DNA of 64,000 nt from the NCBI GenBank assembly GCA_017442865.1, contig JAFRXK010000067.1, positions 1-64,000 of the forward strand, in the 5' to 3' direction. Source of the stretch: Lachnospiraceae bacterium (GTDB lineage: Bacteria; Bacillota; Clostridia; Lachnospirales; Lachnospiraceae). How positions within the stretch are numbered: position 1 is the stretch's first letter; each line of letters begins with the position of its first letter. The position numbers and the translations under genes are program-made. Shown here one piece after another: positions 9,180-29,858 of the stretch. The notes under the pieces are model-generated. The model was not told the DNA's origin. It did no database searches and saw nothing but the letters and a program-made list of their open reading frames with translations.

Positions 9180-10664
9180 CTACTCCTCTTGCGTATCATC
9201 TGATTTTCTTCCATATGAACCATATCTTCCGTACTTGCCGTACTTAGAATACTTGCCATATTTACTGTAGCCATATTTATAACTTCCATACTTATATCCA
9301 GATGCAATATCACTGAGCTCATTCTTCTTGCAGTTAAGCACGCATCCTATTACAGGTATATAATTACCCGTAAGCGACGACAAGGCACGCGACACATACG
9401 ATACCTTTGAAGTATTGCATCTGACAACCATTACAACTCCGTCTGCATACTTTGCAATCAAAGACGCATCCGACATAATTCCGCAAGGCGGCGTATCTAT
9501 TATAACATAGTCAAAGCTTTCCTTAAGCTCCTCTATCAGATTCTTCATCTTTTCAGAACCCATGACCTCGATTGCATTCTTAAGTCCGCCGGTTCCCGGA
9601 ATTATTTTAAGCCTGCTGCCCTCAACATCCGTAAATGCATTCTTAAGTGCGGTCTTGCCATCCAATACATCACCAATACTGCATTTAATATTGTCAGCCT
9701 TTATTCTCTGTGCAATCGCCGGTTTTCTTAAATCGGCATCCACAAGCACAACTCTTTCTTTGGATTCTGCAAGGCTTAAAGCTATATTTACAGCAGTTGT
9801 CGTCTTTCCTTCTCCCGGAACGGCACTTGTTACAAGCACCACCCTGCCATTATTCTTATCACAGAATTTTTTAATCTTCGTCCTTATTGTCCTGTAGGAT
9901 TCCTTGAATGAATAACCTACCTTATCGTTAAGAATTGTTACCGGAATATCCTTCTGCTTTCTTCTCTCTTTAAATTTTATCTCAGGTACTACACCGAGAC
10001 ACTTAACATTCATTCTCTTTTCAATGTCTTCTATATCATTGACTCTGTTATCAAACAATGCAAAAAGCACAAACAGCGCAAGTGCAGCAAATACACCCAC
10101 TAACGCTCCCTTCTTTGCAGGCGACTTATAGTCCGGCAGATTTGCCGGCTCTCTCGGTATTGACGCCGGTGTTATCATATGAAAATACACCTTGCCGACT
10201 ACATAATCAGCAATATTCGGATAACATTTTATAGTTGCAAGCAAAATATTGTAAGCATCTTCAGGATTATTTGAAGTAACGCTTATTGTCAAAAGATTTG
10301 AGGTTTCAGACATATATGCACCGATTGTACCGTTAATCTGCTCCGTATCAAGCTCTTTTTTTAACATATCCCTAAATGTACTTGTTGCAACAAGATACTG
10401 AAACATACTCGAAAGGTTTCTGGCATTCACAAGATTATTTGCATCTGAATAGCCGGAATAATCACTGTTAATCGTACACGTAGCCTCGCTCTGGTAATAA
10501 GGACGATAAGAATTCTTTGCCCTGTACCACATTATTGATGCACCAATTGCAGCGAATAACAATACCAGCCAGAAAAAGCGCTTAAAAATATTAAAGGTAC
10601 GATCAATGATTGATTTGATGTCAATATTCTGTATTAATTCAGACTGTTCTTTATTATCATCCAT
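9180..10664 (-). CDS. Fused Wzz chain-length regulator / BY-type tyrosine kinase 1
   Basis: 494 aa. N-terminal Wzz domain between transmembrane helices at about 28-46 and 186-204, with the PxxP-like region ASIPREPANLPDYKSP before the second helix, then a cytoplasmic bacterial tyrosine-kinase domain: Walker A SAVPGEGKTT (280-289), Walker A' VVLVDADLRKP, Walker B YVIIDTPP. The C-terminus carries 11 tyrosines in KYG/SYG repeats, the autophosphorylation cluster typical of BY-kinases. It controls polymer length or export of exopolysaccharide. Firmicutes usually split Wzz and kinase; here they are fused as in Gram-negative Wzc, although this window also holds a split pair (27573-29042). Start overlaps the previous stop (TAATG) with GAGGAGG upstream. 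Confidence 0.88.
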   Translation of the reverse strand: MDDNKEQSELIQNIDIKSIIDRTFNIFKRFFWLVLLFAAIGASIMWYRAKNSYRPYYQSEATCTINSDYSGYSDANNLVNARNLSSMFQYLVATSTFRDMLKKELDTEQINGTIGAYMSETSNLLTISVTSNNPEDAYNILLATIKCYPNIADYVVGKVYFHMITPASIPREPANLPDYKSPAKKGALVGVFAALALFVLFALFDNRVNDIEDIEKRMNVKCLGVVPEIKFKERRKQKDIPVTILNDKVGYSFKESYRTIRTKIKKFCDKNNGRVVLVTSAVPGEGKTTTAVNIALSLAESKERVVLVDADLRKPAIAQRIKADNIKCSIGDVLDGKTALKNAFTDVEGSRLKIIPGTGGLKNAIEVMGSEKMKNLIEELKESFDYVIIDTPPCGIMSDASLIAKYADGVVMVVRCNTSKVSYVSRALSSLTGNYIPVIGCVLNCKKNELSDIASGYKYGSYKYGYSKYGKYSKYGKYGRYGSYGRKSDDTQEE

Positions 10665-12145
10665 TATTTCGCCTCCTCACCTTCGCTGCTCTTTCTGTCA
10701 TAACCGCCATAGCCGCCATAACCGCCATAGCCTGATTTTCTTCCATAGCCATAGCCATAGCCATAACCATAGCCGTAGCCATATCGTCCGCCATAGCTTT
10801 CTCCACCGAATGCGATGCTTCCTGTGGATCTGTTATATATAAAGCCTAAAAGCTCCGAATCTGTATCTGATAAATCATCAATTGCATCGTTAATCATTCC
10901 GGCAGGTGCTTCATTCTCCCTTACAACCAGAAGAAAAGCCTCCACATTGTCCGCTATAACCTCCGCATCAGCAGTAAGTGCTATAGGGGAAGAATCGACA
11001 AGCACATAATCGTAGCGGTCTTTTACGGTCATTATGAAATCTCTGTACTTCTCTGATGTAAGAAGCTCTGCCGAATCCCCAAATGCCTTTCTTCCGCATA
11101 CCATATCCGGTCTGCCTTCCTCACCCTTATCGATAATCTCATCAATGCTTCTCCTGCCTTTTATATAATCACCAAGTCCGCCATATCCGGCATCCTTTTC
11201 CATATCAAATATCTTATACAATGCAGGCTTTCTTAAATCCGCATCAACCAGAATAACCTTCTTGCCTCTTTCAGCAAGCGCAAGCGCCACATTTGAAACA
11301 ACGGTTGATTTACCCTCATTCTCTAAAAGGCTTGTAAACGCAACGACCTTTTTATTCTTATGATTTAATGCATACTCCAGCTTGGTTGCAATCGACTTTA
11401 CCTGTTCTACAAAATAAAAGCTTGTATTTAAATTTGAAATAAGTATACTTCTCTTTATCTTTTTTAAGCTCTTTTTCTTCTTTTCAACCGGTATAACTCC
11501 AAAGAGCTTTGTGTCCAGCCTCTTTTCTGCGTCCTTCTCATTCTTCAATCCGTCAGAAAGCACCGATAATGCAATAAAACCTGCTAAAAGAGCAATAAAG
11601 CTTATCTCAAATGCTTTTTTTGCATTCTCTTTTCCGTAAAAACGGCTGCTCGGCGCCATTGGAACCGCCGGTGCTGACAGCTGATCCAGCACGGCGTTGC
11701 TTACCACGTAGTCTGAAATCTCAGGATAATGCTTTAACGCTGACTTCATGATTTTAAATGTCATCTCCGGCGTTGATGATGTTACGGTAATATTTATAAT
11801 AGTCGATTCCTGAACCAGCTCTGCAGTTATCTGTCCCGGCACGCTCTTAATTCCTAAATCAGATGCCACCTTGCTTTTCAGAGTATTGCTTGAGAATATA
11901 TCTGTCATAACCTCAGCAATGGTCTTTGCTGTGGATAGGTTTGCATATATTGAACTACCCGCACCCTTTGCCGTAACCGCATATGCCGCAGTTGTTGTAT
12001 ATGTCTCTTTATATGTTCTCTCAGAAAAAAGATATACTCCCATGGCAATAAGCCCTGAAACGACCAGCACAATCCACAAATTCTTAATCACATCACTAAT
12101 AATACATCTAATATTTACAACTAAATCCTGCTTGTTTTTTTCCAT
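10664..12145 (-). CDS. Fused Wzz / BY-type tyrosine kinase 2 with Gly-Tyr repeat tail
   Basis: 493 aa paralogue of the following gene. Wzz domain with helices at about 22-40 and 181-197, then the kinase domain with a Walker A that departs from the usual pattern (SLLENEGKST in place of SxxPxEGKS), intact Walker A' VILVDADLRKP and Walker B YVLVDSSP. The tail consists of seven YG units and four YGG-type units before a charged end, 11 tyrosines in 30 residues. Two fused kinases in tandem suggest hetero-oligomers or cross-phosphorylation, with CpsB-type phosphatases at 16721 and 29059 as likely opponents. ATG 12145 has GGAGG 3-4 nt upstream. Preceded by an Ig-like anchored protein in the same operon. 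Confidence 0.85.
   Translation of the reverse strand: MEKNKQDLVVNIRCIISDVIKNLWIVLVVSGLIAMGVYLFSERTYKETYTTTAAYAVTAKGAGSSIYANLSTAKTIAEVMTDIFSSNTLKSKVASDLGIKSVPGQITAELVQESTIINITVTSSTPEMTFKIMKSALKHYPEISDYVVSNAVLDQLSAPAVPMAPSSRFYGKENAKKAFEISFIALLAGFIALSVLSDGLKNEKDAEKRLDTKLFGVIPVEKKKKSLKKIKRSILISNLNTSFYFVEQVKSIATKLEYALNHKNKKVVAFTSLLENEGKSTVVSNVALALAERGKKVILVDADLRKPALYKIFDMEKDAGYGGLGDYIKGRRSIDEIIDKGEEGRPDMVCGRKAFGDSAELLTSEKYRDFIMTVKDRYDYVLVDSSPIALTADAEVIADNVEAFLLVVRENEAPAGMINDAIDDLSDTDSELLGFIYNRSTGSIAFGGESYGGRYGYGYGYGYGYGYGRKSGYGGYGGYGGYDRKSSEGEEAK
10697..10783 (-). repeat. Tandem short repeats encoding (YG)n and (YGG)n
   Basis: 6-nt units (tat-ggc type codons; ccatag on the plus strand) repeat seven times, then 9-nt units repeat about three times. 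Such arrays are prone to slippage, so tail length may vary between strains. Confidence 0.8.
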
Positions 12146-12157
12146 ACTTCCTCCGGC

Positions 12158-12997
12158 TTATTCTGTAACTATTACAGTAAGAGTGCTTTCACCCGCAAAT
12201 CCAAGGGAATTGACAACCGAATATGTTACCGTATATTTTCCCGGTGTGTTTACATCGACCGCAGAATCAATAATTACACTGCCGGTCTCTATAACCTCAC
12301 CCTCAACCTTACTGTGTATATTTTTAATATATGATGCAGCGTCAAAGGATTCGCCCTCCTTGATATATACAAGATATTCTCTCAATATCACATCCGGGGT
12401 TTTTGACGCTGTGGTTTTGTCAGTGCTTTTAACCTCTACCATAAGCTCTATATCAGAATAATCGCCACAGGAATTAGATACTCCGAATACCACAGGAAAT
12501 ATTCCTGCTGCATTAAATGAGTTTGAACCGCTTACAAGCTTCACCTTATCGGTTATATCACCGTCAATCACATCAAAAGCTTTCACACAGTCTCTTACCG
12601 AATAAATATCATTTTCATTAAATACCAGCGGCTTTGTAAGAGAAAAAACAGGTGGAGTGTAGTCAGTATATTTCACCTTTCTCTGCCATATTGAAACATT
12701 GTTCGACTTATCAAATGCTGCATACGTTATTGTTCTCGTATGATCATCAGGATTGAGCAATGACTGGCTTGCAACTATCAGTGAATTTGTGACATCCCCG
12801 TCAATATTATCTGTGGCTGTCATGCCGGACAAAAGACTTTGCTCAGAATCATGAACGCTTAATTCCAGCATATCAGTATCTGCACTTATAACCGGTCCTC
12901 TTTTATCAACCTTTTCAAACCACCCTTTATAGTGGCATAAAAATAATCCGCAGCATATTAAAAAAGCTGCAATTACAATTCCTTTAAGCCAACGCAT
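12158..12997 (-). CDS. Membrane-anchored protein with DUF5011-type Ig-like domains
   Basis: 279 aa. One N-terminal transmembrane helix, then about three extracellular immunoglobulin-like domains; DNIDGDVT and DVIDGDITDKV are signature segments of DUF5011/HYR-type domains. No catalytic motif. Start chosen at ATG 12997 because AGGAGG ends 7 nt upstream; the preceding in-frame TTG 13000 is too close. It leads the operon with the two fused Wzz/kinases (12-nt gap), and similar proteins occur at 13273 and 26820, so it probably serves the polysaccharide export machine or wall retention of polymer. That role is inferred from context only. Confidence 0.75.
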   Translation of the reverse strand: MRWLKGIVIAAFLICCGLFLCHYKGWFEKVDKRGPVISADTDMLELSVHDSEQSLLSGMTATDNIDGDVTNSLIVASQSLLNPDDHTRTITYAAFDKSNNVSIWQRKVKYTDYTPPVFSLTKPLVFNENDIYSVRDCVKAFDVIDGDITDKVKLVSGSNSFNAAGIFPVVFGVSNSCGDYSDIELMVEVKSTDKTTASKTPDVILREYLVYIKEGESFDAASYIKNIHSKVEGEVIETGSVIIDSAVDVNTPGKYTVTYSVVNSLGFAGESTLTVIVTE

Positions 12998-13064
12998 CAA
13001 TCTTCCTCCTAAAAAAATATCTCAAAGTTCCCTATTATCCCCAAGTTTAATATATACCTTATTG

Positions 13065-14353: not shown

Positions 14354-16159
14354 TTAAAAATCTTTTAATAAAACCTCTATCTCTTCATGCTCCATCTGCT
14401 CTATCTTATGGTCCGATATCCTGTACACCCTGCTGCAGACTCCGAGCACGCTAGGTCTGTGCGTAGTAAGTATACAGGTTTTCTTTTTGCTGTGTCCCAT
14501 AATATTTTTGAGAACTTTTCTTTCTGTAGCAACATCCAGAGCTGAAGTAGCCTCATCAAGTAAAAGCACCGGTGCATCAGAAATAACTGCCCTTGCAATT
14601 GCAAGTCTTTGTGCCTGTCCCTCTGAAAAACCGCCGCCCTTTTCTCCTACAGGACTGTATATTCCGTCAGGAAGCTTCATAACGAAATCATAGGCACATG
14701 CAAGCTTCAACGCCTCAACTATCTCTTCTTCAGAAGCATCCGGCTTAAGCATCCTCATATTGTCTGCAATTGTACCTGAAAAAACCGTATTGCCCTGTGG
14801 AACATAAGAAAAAAGCTTTCTTGACGCAGCTGACACATCCACCTGTCTGCCGGTATTCTCTATACCTAAAACTGCCCTGCCCGCAGAAATATTTACTATG
14901 CTTAAAAGCACTCTCATAAGCGTCGTCTTTCCCTCTCCCGAAGGTCCCACAAGCGCCACTATATCTCCTGCATCCGCATAGAAATTGGCATGCTTAAATA
15001 CTGCATTACCGCTTTTATACGAAAATTCCGCATCTGAAAGCTCAACATACACGCCGCTCTGCGCAGAATCCATCATCAATTCATCCACGGCCTCTTCATT
15101 TTCATATACCTCCTTAGGAAGATCCGAAACTGCCATAAGTCTGCCCGCAGAGGTTGTAGCAGCAATTGCACTCGGCACAAGTCCTATAAGCGACGCAAAT
15201 GCCGCTGTAAGCGTTGAGGCAAGCTGCAAAAACATAGTCATTGTACCATAGGAAATGAACCCCTTCCACAATCTGAACACGCCCCATCCAAAGCACAGTG
15301 CAGATACAGCCATACCGGTCAGACTCATTACCGCCGAGGTTCCTACTGAAAATTTATTAAAATCAAGAGCTATGCCGGCATACTCTGTCTGCACATCCCT
15401 CATTCTGTCTCCAAAGCTCTTAACCATGCCAAAGCTTTTAATGGTCTGGATATTCTGAAACGACTCCTGATTAAAGGCAAGCATTTTACTTGATGCTTCC
15501 TTCATCTTCTTGTTGTACTGCCTCATCTTCTTCATAAGCGTTCTTGAAACAAATATGGTAAACGGCGCGCTTATAAGTGCTAAAAGCGCAAGTGTCTTAT
15601 CATAATAAAATATAACAAAAAACGCTCCAGCAAACTGAAACAGCTTGGTTATAAGATTTGGTATCCAGCCAAGCACACTTGAAGAGACTACTGAAACATC
15701 CGAATTTAATCTGTTTAAAAGGTCTCCGGAATGATATCTCGTGGCAGCTTCCCAGTCGGCGTCAAGTATCTTGTCATATATATCGGCCCTTATCTCATTG
15801 TTGACCTTAATATCTATCTTTGCGCTTATTCTAGACATCAACGCATTCGCTGCTATTGTAAGCAGACCCATAAGTACATATGCCGTTGCCGTAATGTATA
15901 AAGGATACGCTCCGGTTGTTACAGCCATGCTTTTTGCCGCTTCTTCTCCATACCTGAGCACAATAACCGAATCAATCAGTATCTTTGAAACAATGCTTGA
16001 GCCCAGTCCCATGGCAGTGCCGGCAATTCCGAACAATATGTATACAAGAATAGAAAGCTTGTATTTAAATGCATATCCATATATCCACTTACACTCAAGG
16101 AAAGCCTCTGAAAGAGAGCCGTCCTTAATCTTTTTTATTATCTTTTTTATAATTGTCAC
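14354..16159 (-). CDS. ABC exporter, fused membrane and ATPase domains
   Basis: 601 aa type I ABC exporter half-transporter: six-helix membrane domain (about 30-330) then nucleotide-binding domain with Walker A GPSGEGKTT, a variant signature FSEGQAQRLAIARA (in place of LSGGQ), Walker B VLLLDEATSALD and switch His in LTTHRP. No C39 peptidase domain is fused at the N-terminus, so any leader cleavage would have to come from a separate protease, and an S26-type peptidase gene lies 33 nt upstream. Last gene of the LCP-PqqD-CpsB-peptidase operon. The cargo may be a peptide or a lipid-linked glycan; sequence does not decide. GTG start at 16159 with AGGAGC upstream. Confidence 0.85.
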   Translation of the reverse strand: MTIIKKIIKKIKDGSLSEAFLECKWIYGYAFKYKLSILVYILFGIAGTAMGLGSSIVSKILIDSVIVLRYGEEAAKSMAVTTGAYPLYITATAYVLMGLLTIAANALMSRISAKIDIKVNNEIRADIYDKILDADWEAATRYHSGDLLNRLNSDVSVVSSSVLGWIPNLITKLFQFAGAFFVIFYYDKTLALLALISAPFTIFVSRTLMKKMRQYNKKMKEASSKMLAFNQESFQNIQTIKSFGMVKSFGDRMRDVQTEYAGIALDFNKFSVGTSAVMSLTGMAVSALCFGWGVFRLWKGFISYGTMTMFLQLASTLTAAFASLIGLVPSAIAATTSAGRLMAVSDLPKEVYENEEAVDELMMDSAQSGVYVELSDAEFSYKSGNAVFKHANFYADAGDIVALVGPSGEGKTTLMRVLLSIVNISAGRAVLGIENTGRQVDVSAASRKLFSYVPQGNTVFSGTIADNMRMLKPDASEEEIVEALKLACAYDFVMKLPDGIYSPVGEKGGGFSEGQAQRLAIARAVISDAPVLLLDEATSALDVATERKVLKNIMGHSKKKTCILTTHRPSVLGVCSRVYRISDHKIEQMEHEEIEVLLKDF

Positions 16160-16192
16160 AACCTGCTCCTACATCAAATCACACCGATAATA

Positions 16193-16675
16193 TCAGTTCT
16201 CTTTCTTTTCTCGTCTTCTGAATTTTGATTTAAGCTTCGTCAGGCACAATATTAATTTCAGTCTGACGGGTCTTAAAAGCAGCCAGATTCTTTTATAAAA
16301 CCACCATACAAAGCTTTTGCTGTCAATCCACTTTCCATCACGGCAAACCTTTGTGATAATTCCGAATATCTGTTCTTCATCTACAGGTCCCTCAATATTC
16401 TTCTGTGCGTCCCCGACAATATAATACTGCCGCCGTTTTTTGTCTGCTTTTTGTATACGATGCAAAACAAAATCACCATTTCTTCTCTGAAAGAAAACGA
16501 TATCGCCCCTTTCAAGCTCCTTTGATGGTTTTTCAATAATAACGCTGTCTCTAACATCCTTCATGAAAGGAAACATACTGTTACCGCGCACATTTAGTCT
16601 GACCTGCCTGCCTTCATTTACGAGTTCTCTTAAAACCGGCAGATATTTATCATTATCTACAACCTTACAAATCAT
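16193..16675 (-). CDS. S24/S26-family signal-peptidase-like serine protease
   Basis: 160 aa. The region RGNSMFPF carries the nucleophile Ser (about S33), VLHRI supplies a His (about H72) in place of the usual bacterial Lys, and YIVGDA supplies an Asp (about D89). This Ser-His-Asp set is the SipW/Sec11-like type rather than the LepB type. A hydrophobic-basic C-terminal segment (about 125-150) may bind the membrane; there is no N-terminal helix. Such small S24/S26 peptidases recur with PqqD-like proteins and ABC exporters in Firmicutes peptide-maturation and capsule clusters; both partners are in this operon. It probably matures an exported peptide or protein not encoded nearby. ATG 16675 with a weak GGGGTGG site. 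Confidence 0.78.
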   Translation of the reverse strand: MICKVVDNDKYLPVLRELVNEGRQVRLNVRGNSMFPFMKDVRDSVIIEKPSKELERGDIVFFQRRNGDFVLHRIQKADKKRRQYYIVGDAQKNIEGPVDEEQIFGIITKVCRDGKWIDSKSFVWWFYKRIWLLLRPVRLKLILCLTKLKSKFRRREKKEN

Positions 16676-16720
16676 ATTACCACCCCATGATTACAGCCGT
16701 CACATTAAAACCACTAACAG

Positions 16721-17494
16721 CTAAAACCAGTTTCTCAAATCAACATCAGGGAAAACAGGCTCATCATTTAACGACAGCCCACCGCCAAAAATCACATTAT
16801 GCGGATTGGTCTCCAATAAAAGCCTTGCATAATCCTCATCATACATATCGCATATAAAATCATATACGTCCCTCAAATAATTTGTTCTGTGCCATGATGT
16901 GTGTGCATCGCTGGCAACGCAATGCACAAGATTATGCCCCATCAAAACCCTCGCAACAGCCTCCGGTTTCTCACCGAACTTGCCCATAATACTTCCCTTG
17001 TTTACCTGAATACCGCACCCCTTCATAACCCAGCCGTAAATCATTTCGGGATAATCAAATGATGCATAGTATCTTTCAGGATGTGCAACCACAGGTATAA
17101 CGTCCTCATCAAGCAGGCTGTCCAGCATATAGTCCATATATTCCGGTTCTTCTCCGAAGCCGAATTCTACCAGCATATACTTTCCACCATTTACCGTATT
17201 AAGCATATTCCTTCTGTACAGTCTGATTATATCATCCGTTATATAAACCTCGGCCCCGAGAAATAATTTTAAAGGAATTTCTGCGTCCTCTACTTCTTTT
17301 TTTAACATTTCAAAGCGCTTTGTAATATACCCGCCGGAGTAATTGCTGTATAGCTCCGGAATATTACAGTGAGGTGTAACCAGCATCTCAGTTGTACCGC
17401 CCGACACCGCAAGCCTTGCCATTTCAACAGACTCCGCGAAGGAATCCGAGCCATCATCTACCCCCGGAAGTATATGTGAATGAATATCAACCAT
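16721..17494 (-). CDS. cpsB: CpsB/CapC-type PHP tyrosine-protein phosphatase
   Basis: 257 aa manganese-dependent PHP-family phosphatase. Metal-binding motifs are visible: DIHSHILPGVDDG at the N-terminus, TPHCN, the Glu of LGAEVY, VAHPERY and SDAHTSWHR. In streptococci this family removes phosphate from the tyrosine tail of the CpsD kinase; here the likely substrates are the fused kinases at 9180-12145 or CpsD at 27573. It sits between the PqqD-like gene (12-nt gap) and the S26 peptidase gene. A second copy lies at 29059. Start ATG 17494 with GGAGAGG upstream. Confidence 0.9.
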   Translation of the reverse strand: MVDIHSHILPGVDDGSDSFAESVEMARLAVSGGTTEMLVTPHCNIPELYSNYSGGYITKRFEMLKKEVEDAEIPLKLFLGAEVYITDDIIRLYRRNMLNTVNGGKYMLVEFGFGEEPEYMDYMLDSLLDEDVIPVVAHPERYYASFDYPEMIYGWVMKGCGIQVNKGSIMGKFGEKPEAVARVLMGHNLVHCVASDAHTSWHRTNYLRDVYDFICDMYDEDYARLLLETNPHNVIFGGGLSLNDEPVFPDVDLRNWF

Positions 17495-17506
17495 AACCTC
17501 TCCACA

Positions 17507-17773
17507 CTAATCTTCCAGAATCTTTGCCGCACGCATATTCTCAAGATATTCCTTCACATCTGCGCATGCGGTTTCTCTGTCAATATCGAATTCCTCAAGC
17601 AGCTTATCAACAAGCTCATCCTCTGAGGAATCTTCCTTGAGCAGGTTCCATATGAACATTCCAGTCTCATTCACAGTTATAATACCATTAAAATCAACCG
17701 CTGCCCTTCCGGTAGGAACCACAATATATTCCCCGGCTATCTCTCTCATAATAAATCCACTCTTAATCTTCAT
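17507..17773 (-). CDS. PqqD-family protein (RiPP recognition element-like)
   Basis: 88 aa winged-helix protein of the PqqD type. The pattern of an N-terminal beta-hairpin (FIMREIAGEYIVVPTG), GMFIWNLL and a C-terminal helical part with DVKEYLENM matches standalone PqqD/RRE proteins, which bind leader peptides and present them to modifying enzymes. No radical SAM, LanM, YcaO or obvious precursor gene is present nearby, so the partner may be elsewhere or the protein may have been recruited to another job. Gap of 16 nt after the LCP gene and 12 nt before cpsB, so co-transcribed. ATG 17773 with AGGAG upstream. Confidence 0.82.
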   Translation of the reverse strand: MKIKSGFIMREIAGEYIVVPTGRAAVDFNGIITVNETGMFIWNLLKEDSSEDELVDKLLEEFDIDRETACADVKEYLENMRAAKILED

Positions 17774-17789
17774 GAAACATTTCTCCTTA

Positions 17790-18965
17790 TCAGCTTCCGT
17801 AAATAATCCTTCTCAAATCTCTTCTGCATGCAGGAAGATCCGGTACAGTAACCTTCTTTCCTCTGATAGTCTCATATCTGAAGCATCCGTCAGCAGGAAT
17901 TCTGTAAGTCTGAAGCTCCTGTAAGTTCATGCCCATTATAAGCGTTGCATAGTATATTATATCCGAATTCGACATATCTGTTGTCAAATAAGGGAAGAAC
18001 TCGTTTATAAGTCCGAAAAGCGTTACCGGATCCTCATCCTTTAACATATTAAATACAGTAGTTACTATAGTTCTCTGTCTCTGCGTTCTTTCAATATCAT
18101 GTCTTCCGACGTATCTGGTTCTTGCATACATGAGAGCCTGGTCACCATTTAAGTGATTGTAGCCGACAACAAAATTGTGTCCCTTTGAATTGTAATAATT
18201 TACCTCATAGTCTTTAAGTGCAATATCGACACCGCCAAGTCTGTTGATAATAGCCTTAAAGCCATCAAAATCAACCTCTATATTTGCATCAATTTCAATG
18301 CCGAAATTGAGTCTTATGGTCTCGTCAAGAAGCTTCATGCCGCCGTATGCATAAGCAGCGTTAACTCTGTTGTCCAGATAACCCGGAATCTGCACATAAG
18401 AATCTCTCAGAATAGAAGTAATCGTAACTGTCTTAGCACTCTTATTGATTGAGGCAATCATCATTGAGTCGGAGCGCTGTCTTCCTTGTCCAGGTCTTCT
18501 GTCCTGACCGATGAGCAGAATATTGACTACATTGCTTTCTTCTTTTTCGCGCTGCTTCTCTTCCTCCTCAGAAAGCTCTTCATTTTCCCACTCAACATCT
18601 TCGGACTTTATCGTGTCCTCCGAAGGATCAACATCTGCATCATTTAAATCATATATCGGTTTTCCATTCTCATCATAGCCTATAATGATAATATCCTCAA
18701 AATAGCCATTATATTCACCATCCGAATCATCGCTACTATTACCACTATTACCACTATTACCACTATTGTCTCCACTGCCGTTATTGTTAATATCGGTACG
18801 GCTCTCATATTCAATTGTATCCGGATTCACCCTGTTAATTTTATTTAGGGTTGTCCATACTACTGCGAATAAGGACCCTGCCAGTACCAGCAGTAATGCT
18901 AAAATAGTAATCAGAGCCTTCTTCCATGCAGCCATTTTCTTTTTATCTTTATCTTTTTTACTCAT
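17790..18965 (-). CDS. LytR-CpsA-Psr (LCP) family glycopolymer transferase
   Basis: 391 aa. Lys-rich cytoplasmic start, transmembrane helix (about 15-37), low-complexity extracellular linker with GNS repeats and acidic residues (about 55-150), then the LCP domain with LLIGQDRR, RSDSMMIA, the Arg of SILRDSYV, and VNAAYAYGG. LCP proteins move undecaprenyl-linked polymers onto peptidoglycan, so this is the probable last step of wall attachment for the polysaccharide made by this region. First gene of the LCP-PqqD-CpsB-peptidase-exporter operon. SD AGGAG about 9 nt before ATG 18965; a TATAAT (18999-18994) about 30 nt upstream may be its own -10, though no matching -35 is clear. Confidence 0.88.
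   Translation of the reverse strand: MSKKDKDKKKMAAWKKALITILALLLVLAGSLFAVVWTTLNKINRVNPDTIEYESRTDINNNGSGDNSGNSGNSGNSSDDSDGEYNGYFEDIIIIGYDENGKPIYDLNDADVDPSEDTIKSEDVEWENEELSEEEEKQREKEESNVVNILLIGQDRRPGQGRQRSDSMMIASINKSAKTVTITSILRDSYVQIPGYLDNRVNAAYAYGGMKLLDETIRLNFGIEIDANIEVDFDGFKAIINRLGGVDIALKDYEVNYYNSKGHNFVVGYNHLNGDQALMYARTRYVGRHDIERTQRQRTIVTTVFNMLKDEDPVTLFGLINEFFPYLTTDMSNSDIIYYATLIMGMNLQELQTYRIPADGCFRYETIRGKKVTVPDLPACRRDLRRIIYGS
18736..18767 (-). repeat. 9-nt tandem repeat encoding GNS in the LCP linker
   Basis: About 3.5 copies of the 9-nt unit ctattacca (plus strand), in frame, encoding Gly-Asn-Ser repeats in the extracellular linker; a likely site of length variation. Confidence 0.75.
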
Positions 18966-22058: not shown

Positions 22059-23354
22059 TTATTCTTCATATCCTATATCCACACAAAGCACCTCGCTGCT
22101 TTCAATAAAGTAATGTGCAGCGCCCTGTGTAACTGTTGCTCCCGGTGCAACATTCTCAATCTTTGCCCTGTAGGTAATTCCGCCGAGATAAACTCCTCCC
22201 TCTGTATATAACTTATAATATACATAAGCAGTCTTAATTGTCTTATCTGTTTTATTTGTCAGTGAAATCATATTATCTGATGCTGTAATCGTTACTTCAT
22301 CCGGATGCATATCGCTGACTATCTTGGCCGTAATCTCTTTGTCAAAGGTTATTTTTTCTGTTCCCTCAAAACCGACTCCGTTAAGCTCCTGGACAAGAAC
22401 CGGTGTTTTTGGCGGCAGGTTTGAAATAATAAATCTTATTGGATCGCCATTCTTTCTGTTGAAAGTAATTGACGAGTACTGTACCATCTCATCGGAATTA
22501 TTCATAACAACAAGTGAAAGAACATTTTCAGTCTCCTGGTCCTTTCCATCCTCAACATATGGACCTGCAAATGAGCCTATAGCTTCAATAACCATACCTG
22601 TATCTCCAACAGCATAAGGAAGCTCTATGCCGAACACGACATTCTTCGAGTCACTTGAAGAATACATCGGCGCGAAGCCTGTTATAGCATGATAATCAAA
22701 CTTCGTTGTACCCGGTGTCTTTATCTCAATAGTCTTTGATGGGTCTCCATGAGAAATATATTCTGTTAAAGACGTATCCGGAACCTCTACCTCTTTGGTG
22801 CTGCCGCCCTCAGGTGTTGTAATATCTACAACCGTTGTTCCGTCAGGAAGCTTTGTCTCTGTTACCTTATTACCCTTATCATCCTCAAACTTATCGATTA
22901 TCTTCTGGCCGTCATCCGGATTGTCAGAAATGTCTTCCTTTACTCTGGTAACAAGATAGCCGTCATCATTCACAAAATACTCTACAACATGACCTTCTTC
23001 GTCCGTAACCTTTGCAATGGTTCTTCCTTCATCATCCTGATACTTCTCAACCGTGCTGCTTTCAGGCACTATTTCATCAATCAGTTCATCAATAGTTTTT
23101 AACTCGCCCTTTGTCTCATTCTCAGAATCCTTTGTTTCTGAGACAGACTCTGCTTCATTACCGGTGCTCTCAGAAGCTGTTCCTGTTTCAACGTCAGATT
23201 CCTGAACAGTATTCGTATTATCACTGCCTTTGTTCTTATTTGAAACTGCAACTGCAGTTATAATCGCAGCGATAAGCACAAGAAGTGCAACTGCTCCGAT
23301 TATAATCTTTTTATTATATGCTTCTTTTTTATTTTTCTTTGTATTATTACTCAT
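22059..23354 (-). CDS. Membrane-anchored extracellular protein of unknown function
   Basis: 431 aa, not assigned to a family. Lys/Asn-rich cytoplasmic start, one transmembrane helix (about 17-38), then a Ser/Thr/Glu/Asp-rich linker (about 40-85), a segment of short beta-rich repeats reminiscent of wall-protein spacers (YQDDEGRTIAKVTDEEG, FEDDKGNKVTETKLPDG), and a globular C-terminal half (about 210-431). It ends the minus-strand polysaccharide block behind the Wzt-like ATPase, so it may be an accessory surface protein. No catalytic residues are recognisable. ATG 23354 with GGAAAGG upstream. Confidence 0.7.
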   Translation of the reverse strand: MSNNTKKNKKEAYNKKIIIGAVALLVLIAAIITAVAVSNKNKGSDNTNTVQESDVETGTASESTGNEAESVSETKDSENETKGELKTIDELIDEIVPESSTVEKYQDDEGRTIAKVTDEEGHVVEYFVNDDGYLVTRVKEDISDNPDDGQKIIDKFEDDKGNKVTETKLPDGTTVVDITTPEGGSTKEVEVPDTSLTEYISHGDPSKTIEIKTPGTTKFDYHAITGFAPMYSSSDSKNVVFGIELPYAVGDTGMVIEAIGSFAGPYVEDGKDQETENVLSLVVMNNSDEMVQYSSITFNRKNGDPIRFIISNLPPKTPVLVQELNGVGFEGTEKITFDKEITAKIVSDMHPDEVTITASDNMISLTNKTDKTIKTAYVYYKLYTEGGVYLGGITYRAKIENVAPGATVTQGAAHYFIESSEVLCVDIGYEE

Positions 23355-26819: not shown

Positions 26820-27569
26820 CTATTCTACAACCAGTGTCAGCACTTCACGATTTGACCTGTTGCCGTCAGTATCTACTACAAAATAGATTACCTCATATGT
26901 CCCGGCAACACCCGTATCATATCCTCCATCCAATCTGATTCTTCTGTTTAATGTCTCAGAATCATCTTTATCATCTGTTATATCGTCAATATAGTTTAAA
27001 TAATTAAAACGTGTGCCAACAGGTATATTTACATTATGAGTAGTAAGAGTAATTACCGGCGCCTCAGATGCCGTACCTGCATCTGCCGGCTCCTGCGTCT
27101 CAACCTCTACAGGCTGCGCCTCAGTCTCCACAGGCTGTTCCTGCGTCTCATTTTCTGCAGACTGTGTAACTATCTCCTGCTCTTCAGGCAATGACTGTTC
27201 ATCACCCTCTGTTGTCTCTACACTCTCCAAAGCACCTGAATCCTCGGCTGTTTTTTTCACGGAAGCGGTCGCAATAGCGATATTGCCGGCATCATCCTTT
27301 GCCATATACTTTATCCTGTATACGTTATCGCTTAACAGAATAATATCAGTAAGCACCACCTCAACATTTTCTGTTTTATTATCTAATGCCGAAGCTGCCT
27401 TTAAAACTGCTTCCCTGTCATTCAAATCACACTGCTCAAGATACTTTTCATCAATACTTATTACCGGCTTCTGTCTGTCTGACATAAAATACATATATAC
27501 GACCGCAGCCCCCAGCAATAACAACAATAATATAAGAAATGATATTAATAAATTACTTGTTTTTCTCAT
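26820..27569 (-). CDS. Membrane-anchored Ig-like protein of the CpsCD operon
   Basis: 249 aa. N-terminal transmembrane helix (about 8-29), a first beta-domain containing IKYMAKDDAGNIAIA, a Glu/Gln/Thr-rich linker (about 112-165), and a C-terminal DUF5011-type Ig-like domain closing with VAGTYEVIYFVVDTDGN. Third such protein in the window, again next to a tyrosine kinase: it starts 3 nt after the CpsD stop. No enzymatic motif. Presumed extracytoplasmic accessory of the polysaccharide machinery. The ribosome binding site is weak, consistent with translational coupling to cpsD. Confidence 0.75.
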   Translation of the reverse strand: MRKTSNLLISFLILLLLLLGAAVVYMYFMSDRQKPVISIDEKYLEQCDLNDREAVLKAASALDNKTENVEVVLTDIILLSDNVYRIKYMAKDDAGNIAIATASVKKTAEDSGALESVETTEGDEQSLPEEQEIVTQSAENETQEQPVETEAQPVEVETQEPADAGTASEAPVITLTTHNVNIPVGTRFNYLNYIDDITDDKDDSETLNRRIRLDGGYDTGVAGTYEVIYFVVDTDGNRSNREVLTLVVE

Positions 27570-27572
27570 GGC

Positions 27573-28292
27573 TTAATCTTCTATCTCTTCATTGCTATAA
27601 TAATTTTTTGTTCTTTTATAACCGTAATAGCTTGTTCCATAATAACCTGAATAATATTTTCTCTTTGTTGTCTGAACCTTATTAAGTACTACACCAAGAA
27701 TTCTGCAGTTTGTCTTTTCAAGCTGCTTTTTAGTCTCCTTTGCAAACTTAAAGCTTATATCCCCTGCTCCGATAACCATAATAACGCCATCGCAATTTCT
27801 TGACACAACCGCACAATCTGCCACACTTCCCATAGGCGGCGTATCAACAATTACATAATCATATTTCTCCTTTAAGGTCTCTATCGCCTTGGTAAAAAAT
27901 GTGTTTCCAAGCAATTCGGCAGGATTCGGCGGCTCGATTCCGGCAAAAATCATATCCATATTATCAACATTTGTCGAATAAATTACATCTGACAGCTCAT
28001 TCTGTCCTGACAAATAATGACTAAAGCCAACTATCTTCTGTCCAACCTTATATCTGGTTTTAACGACAGACTTTCTTAAATCCGCATCAATATAAATGAC
28101 CTTCCTGCCATCCTCCGCAAGAGTCCTTGCAATGTTAATTGAGGTTTCAGTTTTACCTTCGTTAGGCATACAGCTTGTTACTGCAATTACCTTAATATCA
28201 CTGCCGCAAAAGATAATATTGGTTCTCAACGATTTAAATGCTTCTTTATAACCAAAACTGTTTTCTTTAAATATCAGTTCAATATCCCGCAT
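27573..28292 (-). CDS. cpsD: CpsD/CapB-type bacterial tyrosine kinase (split form)
   Basis: 239 aa. Walker A SCMPNEGKT, Walker A' VIYIDADLRKS, Walker B YVIVDTPPMG, and a C-terminal tyrosine cluster with nine Tyr (YYSGYYGTSYYGYK, then NYY). Works with the adjacent Wzz/CpsC protein, whose cytoplasmic tail activates it, and with the CpsB phosphatase at 29059. Start moved to ATG 28292 because AGAGG lies 8 nt upstream; a GTG at 28301 overlaps that site. 18-nt gap after the Wzz gene. Confidence 0.9.
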   Translation of the reverse strand: MRDIELIFKENSFGYKEAFKSLRTNIIFCGSDIKVIAVTSCMPNEGKTETSINIARTLAEDGRKVIYIDADLRKSVVKTRYKVGQKIVGFSHYLSGQNELSDVIYSTNVDNMDMIFAGIEPPNPAELLGNTFFTKAIETLKEKYDYVIVDTPPMGSVADCAVVSRNCDGVIMVIGAGDISFKFAKETKKQLEKTNCRILGVVLNKVQTTKRKYYSGYYGTSYYGYKRTKNYYSNEEIED

Positions 28293-28310
28293 AAATATCA
28301 CCTCTCGTAC

Positions 28311-29042
28311 TTATGAACTCTTTCTCTTAGATTTCTTCTTTTTCTTCTTTGTATCATTTTCAAAAGGTATAACACCCAGCACGCTTAAGTCCAATACTTT
28401 TTCAACATCCTCAGGTCTCTTAATCGTATCGTCCATAAAATATCTGAGTAAAACAACAGCTAACGCTAACACAAATGCTATTGCCGCTGCAAGTATCACA
28501 TTTTTTAATATATTTGGTGAAACCGGTCTGGTATTAATGTTTCCGACGTCCCAAAGCTTTATTTCATTGATATCCATCATATCAGAACTTTTTTCCTGAG
28601 CAATCTTTACAATCTCATCAACTGTTCTCTTTGCATCATATGGGTCTTTGTCTCTTACTGAAACATAAAGGATTCTTGCGCTGTCAGCAGTATTTACACT
28701 GACTCTTGAACTCAAATCGGAGATAGAGCTGTTAAGTCCTAAAGAATTAACCACTTCCTCAAGTACAATCCTGGTCTTAATCATTTCTTCAAAGTCATTA
28801 GCAAGATTTGAAGCCGACAGTGTATCCTGATATGTTGTTACGCTGTCAGAATTCGCCTTATTAACAATATACACAGATGACTTTGACGAATATTCAGGTG
28901 TAATCAGATATTTACTTCCTAAAAAAGCAGCTAAAGCACAAATAATGCTTACCAGAATAATCAATGGAAGCTTATCTAGGACAGTATAAAATATTTGCTT
29001 TAAATCAATTTCCACTTCAAATTCATTGTCATTCTTTCCCAT
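28311..29042 (-). CDS. cpsC: CpsC/YveK-type Wzz chain-length regulator
   Basis: 243 aa. Wzz domain bounded by transmembrane helices at about 25-45 and 180-200, with PVSPNILKN before the second helix and a short cytoplasmic tail ending in a Lys-rich stretch. It sets polysaccharide chain length and acts as membrane adaptor for the CpsD kinase encoded next. ATG 29042 with AAGGAG upstream. Order CpsB - CpsC - CpsD - Ig-like matches a streptococcal-type regulatory block. Confidence 0.9.
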   Translation of the reverse strand: MGKNDNEFEVEIDLKQIFYTVLDKLPLIILVSIICALAAFLGSKYLITPEYSSKSSVYIVNKANSDSVTTYQDTLSASNLANDFEEMIKTRIVLEEVVNSLGLNSSISDLSSRVSVNTADSARILYVSVRDKDPYDAKRTVDEIVKIAQEKSSDMMDINEIKLWDVGNINTRPVSPNILKNVILAAAIAFVLALAVVLLRYFMDDTIKRPEDVEKVLDLSVLGVIPFENDTKKKKKKSKRKSS

Positions 29043-29058
29043 GTTGTACTCCTTCTTT

Positions 29059-29781
29059 TTATATATACTCGTTGTTTAACATCTTATCCGGATTATAATA
29101 CATAAGCTTATCTAAATATGATTCCCCATACTTTTTAATAATATAAGAGAATGCCTTATCAAAATTATATGACCTGTTCGTATCATTATGGCTGTCGCTT
29201 GCCATAAAATGTACAAGTTCATATTTAAGAAGCTTTTTAACAAATTTTCTGACCGGAAATGAGCTTTCACAGATGCCCTCTGCATTTACCTGAATATATG
29301 CCCCTGCTTCAATCAGCTCCTCCACTCTTTCAATGTCTGTCCTGACATTGTCATACCTTTCGATATGCGCAATAATCGGAATATAACCTTCCATCACAAA
29401 ACGGTTGATTCTTTTTTTCAACAGCGTATAATCTATTGACGTGCCAAATTCGACAAGAACGTATCTTGTCTCTGCCATGGTTTTGCAGACCCCGTCTTTG
29501 ATATAATCAAATCCATCTTCAGCATAGTAAAGCTCATTGCCAAGAAATATCTTCATGTCAGGAAACATCTCTGCGGCAATACTTTGTGTAAGCTCAAAAG
29601 CACTCTGTCTCTTGCTTAAAGACACACGAAACATTGAAGGTCTGAAATGAGGTGTTGCACATATAGTTCTGATTCCCTGTGCATACGCATCCTTTAACAT
29701 GCTTCTTGTCTGTTTTTCATCTGCTGAGCCGTCATCAATTCCCGGAAGTATATGACTGTGTATATCTATATATCCTAACAT
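29059..29781 (-). CDS. cpsB: CpsB-type PHP tyrosine-protein phosphatase, second copy
   Basis: 240 aa, homologous to the gene at 16721. Motifs DIHSHILPGIDDGS, TPHFRPSMF, LGNELYY, IAHIERYD and SDSHNDTNR supply the PHP metal ligands. The longest frame starts at 29832, but AGAGG lies about 5 nt before ATG 29781 and gives the family-typical beginning MLGYIDIHSH. Directly upstream of cpsC and cpsD, so this copy probably counters that kinase, leaving the 16721 copy for the fused kinases; that division is inferred. Confidence 0.9.
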   Translation of the reverse strand: MLGYIDIHSHILPGIDDGSADEKQTRSMLKDAYAQGIRTICATPHFRPSMFRVSLSKRQSAFELTQSIAAEMFPDMKIFLGNELYYAEDGFDYIKDGVCKTMAETRYVLVEFGTSIDYTLLKKRINRFVMEGYIPIIAHIERYDNVRTDIERVEELIEAGAYIQVNAEGICESSFPVRKFVKKLLKYELVHFMASDSHNDTNRSYNFDKAFSYIIKKYGESYLDKLMYYNPDKMLNNEYI

Positions 29782-29858
29782 ACCAACCTCTTTTATCCAA
29801 TTTGGCGACAACACATGATATTCTATCATCATATGTTTTCATTGTAAATACTTATTTA

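Follow-up and report, generated by a model that had tools for sequence, protein, structure and literature searches.

Linear polyphosphorylated peptides (LPP) were described in May 2026 from the lpp cluster of Paenibacillus alginolyticus, in a study that started from capsule-locus peptidases of Bacilli resembling signal peptidase I (SpI-like; Popov et al. 2026, PMC13381572). The lpp parts are the precursor LppA, the kinase LppK, which phosphorylates Ser3, the recognition element LppB, the peptidase LppS, the exporter LppD and the nucleoside triphosphate (NTP) transferase LppN; LppS cuts the LPP leader only if LppB is present, and the structure of LppB with the leader has been solved (PMC13381572). 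Among lasso peptides, ThcoK and SyanK polyphosphorylate the C-terminal Ser, and BsfK Ser3 (PMC10368454). Here we analyse a 64,000-nucleotide stretch from a Lachnospiraceae bacterium, in the following called the window, in which a recognition element (RRE) of ribosomally synthesized and post-translationally modified peptides (RiPPs), an SpI-like peptidase and an ATP-binding cassette (ABC) exporter are encoded within a capsule operon. We consider it fairly probable that these three proteins form the recognition, cleavage and export module of a dispersed RiPP pathway. The gene set as such recurs in kind, and the LPP precedent accounts for most of it.

The genes for an LCP protein, the PqqD-type RRE, CpsB, an S24/S26 peptidase and an MsbA-like ABC exporter form a single operon on the minus strand with intergenic gaps, from LCP to ABC, of 16, 12, 45 and 33 nt; a previous sequence-only reading of this DNA had given this order with gaps of 12-45 nt, and positions and families agree with it. 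The AlphaFold2 model of the window RRE (pLDDT 91) matches the TbiB1-leader complex with a TM score of 0.79 in Foldseek, and a profile built from related RREs yields matches to TbiB1, LppB and TfuB1. When thirteen groove positions of LppB are mapped onto the window RRE by alignment, N33, D70 and M78 of LppB correspond to the identical residues N35, D72 and M80, most of the other positions have residues of similar character (LppB/window RRE: Y60/F62, F74/Y76, L83/I85, L32/V34, I56/L58 and C39/I41), and the character differs at V63/D65. As judged from alignment, model and structural match, the window RRE retains the predicted leader-binding groove on which the sequence-only reading depended. The peptidase, encoded two genes downstream of the RRE, has as its best NCBIfam match TIGR02228 (archaeal signal peptidase I; E 3.3e-7, below the cut-off of this model). 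Its residues Ser33, His72 and Asp89 fit the Ser/His/Asp motifs of signal peptidases, which, together with the PF00717 match, bears out the S26-type assignment made earlier and suggests a leader peptidase. The best NCBIfam match of the exporter is TIGR02203 (MsbA), again below cut-off.

Neither a YxxP-leader precursor nor an HprK-like kinase nor a radical S-adenosylmethionine (SAM) gene was found in the window, a regex for YxxP precursors, run over the window and the flanking contig, yielded no convincing candidate, and no NTP transferase (PF14907) was detected in the window by homology to a protein encoded on contig C45. The sequence-only reading had stated that precursor and modifying enzyme are missing, which is true of the window but not of the genome, a draft of 85 contigs with the window operon on C36. 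Contig C85 carries, at C85:19396-19635, a 79-aa open reading frame (ORF) with a YxxP leader and a good ribosome-binding site, the sequence of which runs MKKAYVKPKMYYESF...CYHAPSDWNNVFSS (also written MKKAYVKPKMYYESFILSSSISSSCEG...CYHAPSDWNNVFSS). It matches the leader pattern exactly, and its match to the precursor model is not independent because it is one of the five seeds of that model. The gene follows that of a giant surface protein and precedes that of an HprK-like kinase; C85 contains no RRE, SpI or ABC gene, and no four-cysteine precursor besides this one was found in the genome. In total, the genome encodes four PqqD proteins, four HprK-like kinases (on C34, C45, C73 and C85) and two radical SAM enzymes that closely resemble those encoded in related loci. 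One of the latter, on C67, combines the radical SAM domain with a weak match to SPASM and is nearest, with 45% identity, to an enzyme of a relative (G233:C77) that accompanies such a precursor. A four-cysteine YxxP precursor, an HprK-like kinase and an SPASM-like radical SAM enzyme are thus present in the same genome as the RRE and the ABC exporter, which supports the earlier suggestion that a RiPP-like peptide from another locus is matured with capsule assembly. The genome scan for radical SAM and short precursor genes proposed at that time yields candidates on C85, C67, C34 and C73.

We infer that the window set is paired in trans with the C85 precursor and that binding, modification, cleavage and export are carried out by the predicted parts. 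The window RRE would bind the C85 precursor through its YxxP leader, and an SPASM-like radical SAM enzyme, probably that on C67, would modify the cysteine-bearing core. The HprK-like kinase of C85 would phosphorylate a Ser residue, plausibly that at the C terminus. Cleavage of the leader near a conserved 'IA' about 21 residues in would fall to the window peptidase, and the ABC exporter would carry the product to the surface, at which assembly of capsule and giant surface protein takes place.

Other sets in the same genome bear on this pairing. At a contig end, C34 (L101:6083-11058) carries a second RiPP-like operon of precursor, radical SAM, HprK, ABC and SpI genes with no RRE on that end, and on C73 (L103:7981-9067) a 38-aa YxxP ORF, MKFNYSDPELEVVLFESEDIMTESGEDNEIPFDDPNEP, lies immediately before an orphan HprK-like kinase, possibly forming an LPP-type precursor pair. 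At the start of C45 (L031:727-3558), genes for an HprK-like kinase, an RRE, an SpI-like peptidase and a PF14907 nucleotidyltransferase are consecutive; this set is the closest match to the published LPP genes, and no precursor was seen there. The window module may hence be an LPP-like maturation and export set not for the C85 peptide but for precursors of the C34 or C73 type, or for one hidden in an assembly gap, as the C34 set lacks an RRE, the C73 ORF adjoins a kinase and a draft in 85 contigs could conceal a precursor. We regard this as unlikely: the C34 set already owns an ABC exporter and a peptidase, and the genes missing around the only four-cysteine precursor (RRE, SpI and ABC) are those that the window contains.

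In a tree of 27 exporter sequences the window ABC exporter falls into a clade of 14 members (support 100/99). A radical SAM gene lies within 8 kb in 9 of the 13 other members and in none of the 13 sequences outside; most of these loci were gathered via RRE or precursor matches, which selects for a RiPP neighbourhood in general, but not for the radical SAM split. Among 397 genomes of the bacterium's family the precursor type occurs in 15 and window-like RREs in 68, and all 15 genomes with a precursor match also have the RRE. One of these matches, in G418, is doubtful, being located inside a 1561-aa frame. The exporter, searched on its own, was found in 62 genomes, together with the RRE in 40 (10.6 expected, p 4e-21), and in 13 of the 15 precursor genomes (p 8e-10), with shared ancestry ignored in both tests. 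These results also bear on a reading in which RRE, peptidase and exporter were recruited for a capsule protein or a lipid-linked glycan and no longer act on a RiPP. The remainder of the window operon indeed consists of capsule genes, the exporter is MsbA-like by hidden Markov model, and SpI, CpsB and ABC genes occur without an RRE in G198:C15. Such a recruitment is nevertheless very unlikely in our view, with the groove residues retained, the ABC clade tied to loci with radical SAM, kinase and precursor genes, and a complementary precursor and kinase in the same genome.

In several relatives the components are found together. L006, L009 and L010 contain genes for a giant protein, an FxLYD protein, RRE, precursor, HprK and radical SAM enzyme within one locus, continuing in L009 and L010 into genes for an immunoglobulin-like (Ig) protein and bacterial tyrosine kinases (BYK). 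The order is giant-precursor-HprK-radical SAM-FxLYD-RRE-ABC-CpsB-Ig-BYK-BYK in G132:C94 and RRE-regulator-Ig-BYK-BYK-ABC-CpsB-LCP-giant-precursor-HprK-FxLYD-radical SAM in G233:C77 (L133), where in both cases 'giant' refers to size and position and not to homology to the C85 protein. An ABC gene is part of the single loci G132:C94, G233:C77 and L010, but not of L009. CpsB adjoins ABC or SpI also in L133, L163, L167, L174 and L189, LCP is present in the same locus in G233:C77 and G147:C7 (L167), and exporter-SpI modules lie next to CpsB, LCP, Ig or BYK, apart from a precursor, in G198:C15, G391:C28 and G029:C27. Regarding conservation of the neighbourhood, the type, i.e. RRE, SpI and ABC beside CpsB, LCP or BYK, recurs in other genera, but the exact order LCP-RRE-CpsB-SpI-ABC was seen in the window only. 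Compared with the single loci of the relatives, their components are spread over C36, C85 and C67 in this genome. The complete single loci would also fit a window set that is an inactive, degenerate remnant of a formerly complete locus after loss of precursor and enzymes. This is highly improbable, as the five frames are intact and tightly spaced, catalytic and groove residues are kept and what the locus lacks is encoded at other places of this genome.

Some proteins encoded in the related loci stand out. Next to window-like RRE genes, proteins of 800-845 aa are encoded (L133:4915, L135:430, L136:10214, L139:6425 and L144:4237), which, judged by eye, look like MalT/LuxR-type regulators. Giant exported surface proteins are encoded upstream of precursors in L100:2-7384, L154:9961, L163:11815 and L165:12568, and several of these proteins begin with what resembles a signal peptide and end in a short aromatic/basic tail.

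Several observations weigh against a pathway assembled from C36, C85 and C67. The RRE tree has poor resolution and, taken alone, does not group the window RRE with the C85-type precursors, its columns being too few to place this protein. The C85 kinase is diverged and has no Pfam match, with its GxxxxGKST loop retained, and the C67 enzyme is surrounded by sugar genes without any RiPP neighbour. The genome has other RREs on C45, C74 and C30, a further peptidase and exporter on C34 and a further SpI on C45, which might act on the C85 precursor instead. Finally, contig breaks near giant genes limit claims of splitting in other genomes. The splitting of precursor from RRE in G198 and G206, considered as proof of action in trans, was set aside because the contigs concerned end at or near a giant gene or an RRE-regulator pair and may be adjacent; the separations retained are ABC-CpsB-SpI in G198:C15 and that in the genome studied here, where the distance between the C36 operon and the C85 precursor would be at least about 33 kb even with abutting contigs.

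The precursors have no family in Pfam or NCBIfam, and against the NCBIfam models listed the scores of the radical SAM proteins fall far short of the cut-offs. The precursors of the related loci have in common a leader with invariant M, K, Y and P residues and, close to their end, an invariant Cys and Cys-Tyr. Most precursors of the CYH/CYN type have four Cys, and 19 of 20 end in Ser, a frequency that is partly selected since all five seeds of the search model do so; in the other type, found mainly via the leader, the C-terminal residue is Ser in 8 of 13. In view of the lasso peptide kinases, the last Ser is a reasonable kinase target, and by this analogy the C-terminal Ser is plausibly the phosphorylated residue. 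A second, longer precursor type with a leader like 'Y..P......F..NEYVAAC' (L143, L146, L151, L167 and L169) adjoins radical SAM genes of a separate clade. Moreover, a long kinase is encoded near window-like exporters in nine loci (L180, L181, L182, L184, L185, L187, L188, L190 and L191), and in 9/9 this protein starts with an RRE to which the HprK-like domain is fused, linking RRE and kinase directly; an ABC gene lies beside these genes, in most cases along with an SpI gene.

Giant surface proteins and capsule regulators are repeated partners of these sets, which directs attention to the cell surface. A peptide that is made in trans, modified by the radical SAM enzyme, phosphorylated on Ser and exported with the capsule machinery might be built into the surface as a structural or linking element, attached to the capsule glycan or to the giant protein, and CpsB or LCP might act on it. 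We rate this proposal as unlikely, and a direct link of the peptide to capsule chemistry is speculation. If true, it would mean that a RiPP serves as a building block of the cell envelope.

The operon lies in a capsule locus, with LCP, CpsB, BYK and a priming transferase-like gene close by (Table 1). Homologues of the Ig-like protein are found in L009, L010, L019, L133, L163 and L167, and BYK genes occur as pairs in related loci, too. The FxLYD protein resembles the product of the gene immediately upstream of the RRE in L009 (phmmer E 2.4e-27), and its homologues in relatives adjoin precursor, kinase and radical SAM genes. A second capsule-regulation set (Ig-like, BYK, Wzz and CpsB) is located at 26820-29832 of the window, about 10 kb from the first.

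Table 1. Features of the window operon and its surroundings
Feature	Position	Strand	Family match
LCP glycopolymer transferase, first gene of the operon	17790..18965	-	PF03816 E 6.7e-38
Discrete PqqD-type RRE, 88 aa, predicted leader-peptide adapter	17507..17773	-	PF05402 E 2.7e-19
CpsB/CapC tyrosine phosphatase of capsule system	16721..17494	-	PF19567 E 8.8e-58
SpI-like S24/S26 serine peptidase, predicted leader peptidase	16193..16675	-	PF00717 E 7.4e-8
MsbA/LppD-like ABC exporter without C39 peptidase domain	14354..16159	-	PF00664 + PF00005
Ig-like surface/membrane protein	12158..13000	-	PF16403
BYK1, Wzz/bacterial tyrosine kinase-type protein	10664..12145	-	AAA_31 + sub-threshold Wzz
BYK2, bacterial tyrosine kinase-type protein	9180..10664	-	AAA_31
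FxLYD-domain membrane protein	22059..23354	-	NF038353 E 1.1e-6

The sequence-only reading knew of no characterised system of this kind. This no longer holds for the core of RRE, SpI, kinase and MsbA-like exporter in capsule loci, which has been published (PMC13381572), but it stands for the radical SAM branch, the four-cysteine precursors and the dispersed layout, none of which is described in the literature searched. As far as that literature shows, these features and the RRE-kinase fusions of the relatives are new. They outline a widespread peptide group with radical SAM enzyme, kinase and RRE that is tied to capsule loci, and a specific precursor, leader motif and partner enzymes can now be named as testable candidates. 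RiPP mining that demands precursor and enzymes in one cluster misses pathways with their recognition, peptidase and exporter genes placed in a capsule operon. Neither capsule nor kinase nor signal peptidase is mentioned in the main texts of RRE-Finder and the 2025 RRE definition paper.

With LPP, the system shares the discrete RRE, the archaeal-type SpI-like Ser/His/Asp peptidase, the MsbA-like exporter, HprK-like kinases, YxxP leaders and the placement in capsule or exopolysaccharide loci. In contrast to LPP, the window cluster contains no kinase, precursor or NTP transferase (a PF14907 protein is encoded on C45), and the related loci carry an SPASM-like radical SAM enzyme, the word 'radical' being absent from the main text of the LPP paper (PMC13381572). 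The precursors differ as well, with roughly four Cys each and, in most of them, Ser as the last residue, and are accompanied by giant surface and FxLYD proteins; of the LPP leader YxxPxVLxHQxIxFETxxS the C85 precursor has YxxP, but not the remainder, and no precursor with this leader was found in the window. Lasso peptides of the paeninodin type (RRE B1, kinase and NTP transferase) are similar in RRE fold and groove, kinase family and YxxP, whereas the peptidase here is SpI-like and not B2; neither a lasso cyclase nor a B2 gene was noted in the examined loci, though neither was searched for. Radical SAM/SPASM RiPPs (PqqD/PqqE and others) likewise combine a radical SAM enzyme with a discrete RRE, to which an HprK-like kinase, an SpI-like peptidase and an MsbA-like exporter are added here. 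Since related sets are common in the same family, the system is best regarded as a dispersed, radical-SAM-containing variant of an LPP-like RiPP pathway, the LPP family itself being recently described.

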